Shown: one piece after another, positions 40,749 through 45,102 of the stretch
Layout: every line of letters starts with the position of its first letter
Numbering within the stretch: the stretch's first letter is position 1
NCBI RefSeq assembly: GCF_009731355.2
Contig: NZ_AP022810.1
Span: forward strand, 3,190,001 to 3,254,000
DNA from: Desulfuromonas sp. AOP6
GTDB lineage: Bacteria > Desulfobacterota > Desulfuromonadia > Desulfuromonadales > SZUA-540
Direction of reading: 5' to 3'
DNA length: 64,000 nucleotides
Made by a program: the position numbers and the translations under genes
The notes under the pieces: generated by a model
What the model saw: the letters and a program-made list of their open reading frames with translations, nothing else
Database searches by the model: none
What the model was told of the DNA's origin: nothing

Positions 40749-41195
40749 TTACCCTATGGTTACCTGCCGGGTCTCTTCCCACAGCCCATGGAGATTACAG
40801 AACTCACGGGCCCTGAGGGTGGCCGGTCCCTCCACAGTGATAAAAAAGGTGACCTTGGGAGCATTCTGGCCTGGCGTCAACGTGGCCCTGCCGGCCGGCT
40901 TGTCGTCGACGAACAGCTCAACATAGTCGATGTAATGTTCCTTGACCATGGGATGGATGACTTCCCCCACCGTGATCGTCACCGGGAAGGGCACTCCCTT
41001 GGTCAGGCGCTCCGGCACCTCGATTACCGGCACATGCTTCTGTTCGGACAAGGATTTGTTGGCTGGATCTTTGGCCGTGAAGACATGCATCTCTGACTCG
41101 GCGGCGCGCACACTGGGAACACCCATGAAAAGACCAGCAGCCAAAACCGTCGAACCCGTCAGCAGAAACTCCCGTCGCTTCACATCAGCACCCAT
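40749..41195 (-). CDS. Superoxide reductase (neelaredoxin type), Tat-exported
   Basis: 148 residues; AAAGGAGG 7 nt before the ATG. The N-terminus carries a twin-arginine motif (KRREFLL, R7-R8) and a hydrophobic stretch ending in RAAE, so it is probably exported folded. The mature domain is a class II (one-iron) SOR with the His4Cys site H54, H81, H87, C133 and H136 (KHVP, HPM, KEHY, CNLHGLW). The usual Glu before Lys-His is Gln (Q52-K53-H54), a substitution also known in some active SORs. It reduces superoxide to peroxide without making oxygen. TatA/B and TatC are encoded at 58030-59152. Confidence 0.9.
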   Translation of the reverse strand: MGADVKRREFLLTGSTVLAAGLFMGVPSVRAAESEMHVFTAKDPANKSLSEQKHVPVIEVPERLTKGVPFPVTITVGEVIHPMVKEHYIDYVELFVDDKPAGRATLTPGQNAPKVTFFITVEGPATLRAREFCNLHGLWEETRQVTIG

Positions 41196-41341
41196 ATGCT
41201 TGCCTCCTTTTAGTTATATTTAGGAACTATATCCGGCTTTGCAATTCTTGCAAGAGACGGCTGCCCTGTCTGGGGCGATTTCACTTGCTCCTGCACAAGA
41301 AGGTATTATATATTGAAAGTCCTATCTTATGGAGGAGCCTT

Positions 41342-41488
41342 ATGGAAATACTCAGTATCCTCGGCATTGTTGCCATCTGGTACGTCGTCAACAAGTGGGT
41401 TTTGCCCAAGATGGGCGTCCAAACCTGACTGTCCGACAGTTGCAGCCTTCCGGTCCGGAAGGAAGAAGAAAAAAAAGAAAACCAATAA
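41342..41488 (+). CDS. Candidate small membrane selenoprotein (in-frame UGA)
   Basis: GGAGGAGCCTT precedes an ATG that opens MEILSILGIVAIWYVVNKWV, a single TM helix, then LPKMGVQT and a TGA at 41426-41428. If the TGA is read as selenocysteine the frame continues as ULSDSCSLPVRKEEEKKENQ to TAA at 41486-41488, giving 48 residues with a U29-x4-C34 redox pair and a charged cytosolic tail. A SECIS-like hairpin follows the UGA: CCTTCCG (41446-41452) / CGGAAGG (41456-41462) with apical loop GUC, 24 nt after the UGA. A strong terminator follows. If UGA is a stop the product is a 28-residue TM peptide. I do not know a characterised homologue. Confidence 0.6.
41446..41462 (+). promoter_or_regulatory. 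SECIS-like stem-loop
   Basis: A perfect 7-bp stem with loop GUC; the first loop base is G and lies 25th after the UGA, within the 16-37 nt spacing known for bacterial SECIS elements. It is inside the predicted extended reading frame. Confidence 0.5.
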
Positions 41489-41506
41489 TTCTCGTATCTG
41501 TGCATT

Positions 41507-41550
41507 CAGCCCCCCGGAAAGACCATTCCGGCGGGGCTGATTTTTTTTGC
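41507..41550 (+). terminator. Terminator after the small UGA-containing gene
   Basis: CAGCCCCCCGGAA and TTCCGGCGGGGCTG pair across the loop AGACCA, followed by ATTTTTTTT, 20 nt after the TAA at 41488. Confidence 0.88.
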
Positions 41551-41610: not shown

Positions 41611-42993
41611 TTATTTGCTCCGGGCCCACTTGGGGTTGACCATCGGATCCCCTTTGTAGCCCAGCGCTTTCCAGTTCAGGCGGCCGTTGTCTCCATGACA
41701 GTCGAGGCAGTTGAGGGCTTCGCTGGCCGGAGAGACCATGTGGTTGAGACGCCAGTACATGCGGGTCTCGATAAAGTCGACCTCACCGCTGAAGGGCAGT
41801 CCTGCCGCCTTCATGCCGATTTCGGCCGAGCGCTTCCAGTCGAAGGTGGTCCAGTAACCATCGTCGCCGATCTGATGGACGGCCAGCAGGGTTTTGTTGA
41901 CAGGGTCAAAGGCCTGTTTGCCGCCCATCACCTTGAAGGGATAAATGCGGGCCTTTTTGTCCTTGATGGTCGACGTCGGTCCAGCCACCATCAGCACTTT
42001 GTTCGGATCCTTGATCTTCTGGCCGCGTACATGGTTGATGGCCTCGCCCGTCTCAAACCAGGCATACTCGGGTTGAACCATTTTGCCGTACTTCATGTCC
42101 CCCTTTTTCTTCACATACAGGGGCAGACCGTATTTATCCTTGATGATATCACGGCTGTCATCGCCGGCGGTCGACCAGTCCCACCAGATTTTGGTCGGAA
42201 TCTCTTTGGCATAATACGGAATGTGGCAGGTCTGACAGGCGATGTTGGCCGCGTGATCGTTGAGACGGCTTTCCTGGTGGACAGCACCGGCGTGGCAATC
42301 TTCGCAGCGGAGCTGGCTGGCGGCACCCGGAGAGACGCCGAGGGAATTACCAGGGATGACATGGTTTTTGGTCACATGGCAGGACTGGCAGGAAAAGTCC
42401 TGGCCGTCGAGACCCATGTGGATGTCGGTCTTGCTTTCAGGATAGGACATGGAGGAATCGAGGTCGCCGTGCTTGACAGCATCACCACCGCCGCCGTAGA
42501 AGTGGCAGGCACCGCAGTTGTCACGTACGGGTGCGCCGACATTCTGAGCAATCCGCAGCAGGTTAAGGCCTTCGGCGGGCCAGCCGGCATCGCCCTTGAC
42601 GTAAGTGCCTGTCGTGTCGTGGCAGACCAGACAGTCCACCCTGGTCTTATCGCTGAAATCGAAACTGTCGTCCTCGAAACCGTAACCGGCATGGCAACGG
42701 TTGCACGAAGTCTCGTTACTTTTAATCTGGGTGCAGTAGTTATTGAGCACATTGCGCTTGCCGGCGGCTACTTTTTTCCCGTCAATCTCCTGTTCGAGGG
42801 CCCAGGTCCAGTGACTGGTCTTCATGAAGTCTTCGGCCTGCTGCTCATGGCAGTCCAGGCAGACCCTGGTGACATCTGGCCCTGTTTTGAATTCCCCTTG
42901 AACATATTCGGTGTGAGGATTGGCGGCCAGGGCTGCTCCTCCCCATAAACCCAGAATCAAAAATAACGCCAAAATCCTTTTCAACTGTCGCAT
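41611..42993 (-). CDS. Octaheme c-type cytochrome, tetrathionate reductase (OTR) family
   Basis: 460-residue periplasmic cytochrome with a Sec signal (cleavage after ALA, about residue 23). Eight CXXCH sites are visible in order: CLDCH, CNRCH, CLVCH, CGACH, CQSCH, CEDCH, CQTCH and CLDCH. The unusually long gap (about 150 residues) before the last haem, and the WWDWSTAGDDSRD and WFETGEAINH segments, match the OTR family, which in vitro reduces tetrathionate, nitrite or hydroxylamine. The physiological substrate is uncertain. CCAAGGAGG precedes the start. Monocistronic between terminators. Confidence 0.88.
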   Translation of the reverse strand: MRQLKRILALFLILGLWGGAALAANPHTEYVQGEFKTGPDVTRVCLDCHEQQAEDFMKTSHWTWALEQEIDGKKVAAGKRNVLNNYCTQIKSNETSCNRCHAGYGFEDDSFDFSDKTRVDCLVCHDTTGTYVKGDAGWPAEGLNLLRIAQNVGAPVRDNCGACHFYGGGGDAVKHGDLDSSMSYPESKTDIHMGLDGQDFSCQSCHVTKNHVIPGNSLGVSPGAASQLRCEDCHAGAVHQESRLNDHAANIACQTCHIPYYAKEIPTKIWWDWSTAGDDSRDIIKDKYGLPLYVKKKGDMKYGKMVQPEYAWFETGEAINHVRGQKIKDPNKVLMVAGPTSTIKDKKARIYPFKVMGGKQAFDPVNKTLLAVHQIGDDGYWTTFDWKRSAEIGMKAAGLPFSGEVDFIETRMYWRLNHMVSPASEALNCLDCHGDNGRLNWKALGYKGDPMVNPKWARSK

Positions 42994-44673: not shown

Positions 44674-45003
44674 TCATCGCAAACTGGTTGCACAGCGCGG
44701 ACAGGTGAGCATGCTGGTGGAAGGCACCCTGTGTCCGCAGGTCGGGCAGAAGAACCAGTAGCGGCAGTATTTGCACTGAGGTTCGGACACGCCCTGTTTT
44801 TTCTTACATTTAGGGCATATACGATACATTTTTTTCTGTTCGAGATAGTCCGCGAAGATCAGGGCACAACGGGGACATTCCCGAGCGTCGCGATTGCGAA
44901 TTTCGGCACCGCAATTGGGGTTGGGGCATAAAAAAACCGTTTTACAGCCACTGCACCAGTATTTTCCCTTTTTCATTTCCTTACATACGGGGCACTTATC
45001 CAT
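44674..45003 (-). CDS. Multi zinc-ribbon protein of unknown function
   Basis: 109 residues from the ATG at 45003 (AGAGG upstream; frame extensions further upstream run through a terminator). Eight Cys pairs are visible: CPVC, CSGC, CPNPNC, CPRC, CPKC, CKYC, CPTC and CPRC, enough for four zinc ribbons in tandem covering nearly the whole protein. The linkers are basic and aromatic (KKKQG, RYWFF). I do not recognise a named family. Such ribbons bind nucleic acid or proteins, but no role can be assigned. Followed by cls. Confidence 0.75.
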   Translation of the reverse strand: MDKCPVCKEMKKGKYWCSGCKTVFLCPNPNCGAEIRNRDARECPRCALIFADYLEQKKMYRICPKCKKKQGVSEPQCKYCRYWFFCPTCGHRVPSTSMLTCPRCATSLR

Positions 45004-45057
45004 GATCAACCTCTTGACTTTATTGTTGCTGCCGAGCCGATATCGGTTATCTCGCGT

Positions 45058-45086
45058 AAAAAAAGCCGGTCCCTGAAGACCGGCTT
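45058..45086 (-). terminator. Terminator upstream of the zinc-ribbon gene
   Basis: AAGCCGGTC (45063-45071) and GACCGGCTT (45078-45086) pair with a 6-nt loop. Read on the minus strand the stem is followed by seven T residues. It closes the short transcript starting near 45250. Confidence 0.88.
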
Positions 45087-45102
45087 GTAGCAGGGCCATT
45101 TC

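Follow-up and report, generated by a model that had tools for sequence, protein, structure and literature searches.

A probable 48-residue membrane selenoprotein encoded across an in-frame UGA codon in Desulfuromonas sp. AOP6 and its relatives

The locus and its neighbours

What is encoded between the superoxide reductase and octaheme cytochrome genes of Desulfuromonas sp. AOP6? In the window, by which we mean the whole 64,000-nucleotide stretch of DNA that was analysed, a frame of 28 sense codons is followed by TGA, 19 more sense codons and TAA, and the read-through product, MEILSILGIVAIWYVVNKWVLPKMGVQT-U-LSDSCSLPVRKEEEKKENQ, is 48 residues long. Its parts are an N-terminal helix, the motif N-K-W-x-L-P-K-x-G-V-x-T, the putative selenocysteine (Sec29), Cys34 and a charged tail. 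The features of the locus and its surroundings are:

40749-41195, reverse strand: superoxide reductase (PF01880 and TIGR00332, above cut-off)
41331-41337, forward strand: Shine-Dalgarno sequence GGAGGAG (from the sequence)
41342-41488, forward strand: probable selenoprotein gene, 48 codons, 147 nt including TAA (homologues, alignment A1)
41342-41344, forward strand: ATG start codon (from the sequence)
41345-41410, forward strand: predicted transmembrane helix, residues 2-23 (AlphaFold2, Kyte-Doolittle)
41426-41428, forward strand: UGA, read as selenocysteine, residue 29 (UGA in every extracted homologue)
41441-41443, forward strand: codon of Cys34, the putative Sec partner (Cys downstream in 158 of 158 distinct sequences)
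41446-41462, forward strand: candidate SECIS hairpin CCUUCCG-GUC-CGGAAGG, 7-bp stem (filter, covariation, enrichment)
41453-41455, forward strand: loop GUC of the hairpin, starting 24 nt after the UGA (from the sequence)
41486-41488, forward strand: TAA stop of the selenoprotein frame (from the sequence)
41506-41549, forward strand: intrinsic terminator, then a T run (fold of -26.9 kcal/mol)
41611-42993, reverse strand: octaheme cytochrome of the tetrathionate reductase family (TIGR04315, 576 bits)
44674-45099, reverse strand: Cys-rich zinc-ribbon protein

A preliminary description, made from the sequence of this stretch, had pointed to the 28-codon transmembrane frame with its strong Shine-Dalgarno sequence and TGA at 41426, to the extension to TAA that reading TGA as Sec would give, with a U29-x4-C34 pair and charged tail, and to a strong terminator just past the frame, and each of these was found in the sequence. 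A Shine-Dalgarno-like motif also lies 5' of the start in 78 of the 79 homologues from the same order. The terminator is unusually stable (z -4.7, with none of 200 shuffles equally stable), and the gene is monocistronic in the window, with this terminator at its own end. That the frame might be a leader peptide or attenuator was considered and ruled out, because a strong terminator follows it and its downstream neighbour is encoded on the opposite strand.

The same description had identified the two flanking genes and taken them as a hint of function. The identities stand, but the hint finds no support, since the neighbours differ between families and phyla. A superoxide reductase or rubrerythrin lies near the gene in some Desulfuromonadia, and neither clustering of the flanking open reading frames nor a Pfam tally of the 106 nearest neighbours gave an operon partner common to the loci over and above synteny at the level of lineages; the neighbour that recurred most in that tally, a D-alanyl-D-alanine carboxypeptidase, occurred five times. 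The TIGR04315 octaheme cytochrome family has a Sec-containing member in the 2026 catalogue of selenoproteins (PMC13188914), and the cytochrome frame at 41611-42993 has no in-frame UGA. Of 120 loci examined, 24 have a relative of the zinc-ribbon protein downstream of the selenoprotein gene, and none of these 24 belongs to the distant set.

Decoding of the UGA codon

Is the UGA a stop codon, or is it read as selenocysteine? The 7-bp stem with loop GUC that had been placed 24 nt past the UGA is present, has a free energy of -10.3 kcal/mol and agrees with the bacterial SECIS consensus used for comparison (the model in PMC13188914), applied as a loop of 3-9 nt, a stem of 4-16 bp, G in the first two loop bases, a position 16-37 nt after the UGA and an MFE of at most -7.5. 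The downstream sequences of 74 of the 79 same-order homologues agree with it too. A filter this lax passes about half of random UGAs as well (168 of 316, 53%), and the isolated downstream fold of the window is no more stable than its shuffles (z = -0.95). Both points favour a conventional membrane peptide of 28 residues with the UGA as its stop, the downstream frame and hairpin being chance or 3' UTR; and in the window sequence alone the combination of UGA and hairpin does not rise above chance and is suggestive only.

Comparison with relatives refutes the 28-residue peptide, to which we now assign a negligible probability. The Sec site is TGA in all the homologues extracted (79 from the same order, the best 80 of 196 relatives from GTDB species genomes, and 61 loci from the class and phylum), and Cys, UAA or UAG was found there in none of them, yet UAA or UAG is the final stop in 61 of the 79 same-order members (TAA 43, TAG 18, TGA 18). 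A cysteine lies 3' of the site in 158 of 158 distinct sequences, compared with 30% of reads after random UGAs; the spacing is U-x4-C in 147 and 3, 5, 8 or 11 residues in the other 11, and in the 79 same-order homologues the cysteine is encoded by TGC in 46 and by TGT in 33. Over the 12 codons past the UGA, frame 0 is open in 160 of 160 distinct sequences, as against 136 and 64 for frames 1 and 2, and the third codon positions are the most variable just past the UGA, as they are upstream of it. An invariant cysteine, an open frame and a codon-position pattern, seen across about 160 sequences, would not be expected downstream of a true stop. In the 79 homologues of the order the segment mostly reads T-U-[LM]-S-x-x-C-x-L-P-V-R, or in a second group G-U-G-P-x-x-C-D-L-P-V-R, followed by a variable charged tail. 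Homologues that end at the UGA with nothing conserved beyond it, named beforehand as the outcome that would count against Sec, did not appear: conserved sequence continues and the downstream Cys is invariant in about 158 distinct sequences. The accompanying suggestion that homologues might carry either Cys or UGA at position 29 came out in part, with UGA in every extracted copy and Cys in none anywhere searched. The cells may also make a truncated form of 28 residues.

Two variants of the segment are recorded here. In one subclade (L066-L072 and L074-L079), G-U-G-P-x-x-C replaces T-U-[LM]-S-x-x-C, so that the residue preceding Sec changed in step with the segment that follows it. In L056 (genome G062) the usual stop is missing and the frame of the tail continues for about 160 codons, through either a sequencing error or a real fusion.

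The control rate of the lax filter is misleading, and a position-specific perfect-stem test and an analysis of covariation were therefore used. A perfect stem of 6 bp or more, placed 19-27 nt past the UGA and capped by a loop with G among its first two bases, occurs in 108 of 156 family sequences compared with 1490 of 21915 control UGAs (odds ratio 31, p 4e-86). Among 55 aligned members, double-change cells numbered 34, against 11.4 in shuffles; stem pair 21-37 has 12 double changes, and pair 24-34 (columns of alignment A2, window positions 41449 and 41459) is U-A in 36 and C-G in 19, and broken in none. The C-G state occurs in five families of the order (f4, f8, f13, f17 and f18), one of which, f8, has both states. 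The LPRDG and SPGGR groups keep the hairpin with different amino acids, and the hairpins of the distant phyla, unrelated in sequence, lie at a similar distance and have a G-starting loop, for example GUGCGGUGUCACCGCAC and CUGCUCGGUCGAGCAG. The stem and loop first described in the window are thus joined by enrichment and covariation in its relatives, and taken together the conserved UGA, downstream Cys and frame and the enriched, covarying hairpin go, on comparison of the sequences, beyond what chance would be expected to give. As an observation in its own right, pair 24-34 links the third, synonymous position of a Leu codon with the base that opens the Lys or Glu codon after LPVR, and because the latter base decides between the two residues, Lys or Glu at this place tracks the base pairing over the 55 sequences, an instance in which the structure of the RNA guides the choice of residue in the protein.

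Conserved read-through alone leaves the identity of the inserted residue undefined, and on that ground one might propose a programmed read-through in which the UGA receives an ordinary amino acid such as Trp, with no selenium. Several observations make this exceedingly improbable. In 18 of the 79 members the frame ends at a genuine TGA stop, and the genetic code there is therefore standard; Trp insertion would bring no need to keep UGA over UGG; the position of the hairpin and its G-starting loop fit the bacterial SECIS model (PMC13188914); and the presence of the gene follows that of selB and tRNA-Sec.

The selenocysteine machinery bears on the same question. A check of the genome for selA, selB, selC and selD had been proposed, with absence of selB or selC as the outcome that would speak against Sec, and this objection fails: selA (620 bits), selB (395), selD (359) and tRNA-Sec (77 bits) were all found, with selA, selB and selD in one cluster. 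The selD gene itself has an in-frame UGA, and SelD contains Sec in the motif SAGUAAKLGP (G000:C1:2471810-2472736, L255). Within the order, selB or a strong tRNA-Sec match occurs in 78 of 79 genomes that bear the gene compared with 10 of 19 that lack it (p 5e-7). Across the phylum, selA occurs in 164 of 171 gene-bearing and 191 of 224 gene-lacking genomes (p 6e-4); the link is genuine, though modest, since selA is present in most genomes of the phylum. Seven gene-bearing genomes lack a selA match; the assemblies of several of them are incomplete, and one match is weak. Among the 16 genomes behind outlying matches, selB is above cut-off in 14. Residue 29 is, as judged from these comparisons, almost certainly Sec, and we hold with strong confidence that the locus encodes a SECIS-dependent membrane selenoprotein, in which SelB with Sec-tRNA(Sec) would decode the UGA with the assistance of the hairpin.

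Distribution and the cysteine form

Searches with the read-through product found the gene in 79 of 98 same-order genomes and 44 of 48 genera, each copy with one in-frame TGA. With the profile from alignment A1 it was recovered from 222 of 277 class genomes and from 171 of 395 phylum genomes (114 of 246 genera), with TGA in every match listed. A scan of GTDB species genomes, with a peptide pattern lying wholly upstream of the UGA as query, gave 196 relatives, of which the best 80 come from several phyla and all have U at the Sec site. They include contigs labelled Planctomycetota (L173, L178, L180, L183), Verrucomicrobia (L165, L166), Acidobacteria (L175, L185), Spirochaetes (L186) and KSB1 (L187), labels that may err for single relatives because most are metagenome bins. 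The planctomycete contigs L173, L180 and L183 have in common a tail and a hairpin sequence of their own. The relative labelled Chloroflexi (L150) is probably Desulfuromonadales contamination, since its peptide and that of L154 are identical but for one residue. Related peptides occur in well over 100 bacterial genera, and no match to the family was found on viral contigs or plasmids. One genus, g99 in family f42 (e.g. G309, G346, G381), has two profile matches per genome, unlike most carriers.

Nearly all selenoproteins have Cys homologues (PMC13188914). A DNA pattern for the Cys-codon version of the motif matched in none of the 395 phylum genomes, the TGA version of the same pattern catching 66 of the 79 order members and 40 of the 55 distant members. 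Absence of a Cys form is bounded rather than proven by these searches, which covered the best 80 of 196 GTDB relatives and sampled Sec-less phyla shallowly. We think it likely that this is an old, very widespread prokaryotic Sec-only family, a single-helix membrane micro-protein with a job beyond the reach of cysteine. If so, it would be among the commoner selenoproteins of the Desulfobacterota and could help to explain why lineages of that phylum keep the costly Sec machinery, and a strictly Sec protein would provide a clean system for asking which tasks of selenium lie beyond sulfur and for what reason genomes retain Sec coding.

No match for the 48-residue selenoprotein was found among published or catalogued families, and its family is absent from the catalogue of 119 prokaryotic selenoprotein families and subfamilies of May 2026 (PMC13188914). 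Surveys of prokaryotic selenoproteins rest largely on Cys homologues, and would miss this one because it has no Cys homologue that we could find and an apparent length of 28 codons, below the length that annotation normally keeps; the family thus illustrates a class that those methods cannot see. Desulfuromonas soudanensis WTL (3,958,620 bp), a benchmark genome for deep-Sep, was reported to hold 0 new selenoproteins (PMC12013277); it is apparently the genome (G015) that carries homologue L006, so that this genome was surveyed and the family in it apparently passed over.

Predicted topology, possible roles and known systems

AlphaFold2 gives one helix (residues 2-23), with pLDDT of about 89 over residues 1-20, and leaves the remainder disordered; the Kyte-Doolittle maximum is 2.2 over 15 residues, and nothing meaningful was matched among solved structures. 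From these predictions, membrane anchoring of the 48-residue protein is very likely. Mean net charge changes from -0.7 before the helix core to +1.9 just after it, which by the positive-inside rule places the C-terminus in the cytoplasm, an N-out/C-in orientation that we consider probable. The helix would span the inner membrane, and Sec29, about six residues past the helix, would lie with Cys34 just off the cytoplasmic membrane surface on a flexible tail.

How does such a protein compare with known selenoproteins? The catalogued bacterial SECIS-dependent selenoproteins have the same in-frame UGA and a SECIS hairpin whose loop starts with G, 16-37 nt downstream, and likewise pair Sec with Cys and co-occur with selA, selB and selC. 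The nearest motif in the catalogue is the LULAxC of TsoA (NF045695; PMC13188914), which like the present family has U-L-[S/A] and then a close Cys; its spacing is U-x3-C, however, whereas ours is mostly U-x4-C, and the NF045695 model matches none of 45 members. No NCBIfam model, those for selenoproteins included, gave a relevant match to any of the 45 at E up to 10, and the library searched contains the models that the catalogue lists for Haft and Tolstoy 2025. Pfam, including the putative mercuric transport selenoprotein PF02411, gave no match, the window protein showing only a sub-threshold resemblance to DUF3985 (PF13153) that is weak (E 0.015-0.07; 13.5-15.8 bits against a curated cut-off of 25) and confined to the hydrophobic stretch of an 18-residue helix. 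Among eukaryotic proteins, SELENOK and SELENOS are single-pass membrane selenoproteins with an N-terminal helix and a cytosolic disordered tail that bears Sec, which in SELENOS is paired with a Cys. They are larger and their Sec is near the extreme C-terminus, whereas in the present protein it is mid-protein and near the membrane, and the analogy is one of working principle only.

In the mechanism that we favour for the pair, Sec29 and Cys34 would most probably alternate between the selenol/thiol and selenenylsulfide states and in doing so reduce a membrane-borne oxidant such as a peroxide, a quinone-derived electrophile or an oxidised protein thiol, and would be restored by the thioredoxin system. 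A redox role is suggested by the Sec/Cys pair, and the variable U-to-C spacing (3-11 residues) would also fit metal binding; we give a redox rather than a metal-binding or structural role about an even chance. Binding of a soft metal or metalloid (Hg, Cu, As or Fe) by Sec and Cys, in a chaperone, sensor or trap, is a possibility that we hold doubtful: the variable spacing and flexible linker suit a two-ligand site, and the 2026 catalogue links many membrane and transport selenoproteins to metals (PMC13188914), but no metal-transport gene is a conserved neighbour and MerR-family regulators make up only 4 of the 106 nearest-neighbour proteins. Rather unlikely, too, is a small accessory subunit whose Sec/Cys pair acts inside a larger membrane complex. 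The size, the single helix and the W, P and G conserved where the helix ends would suit packing on a partner, whereas the gene, monocistronic in the window, lacks an operon partner and has neighbours that vary. A set of genomes has selB and tRNA-Sec without the selenoprotein gene (G004, G044, G052, G066, G074 and others, several of them in family f4), and these could serve as a contrast set in the search for a partner or function.
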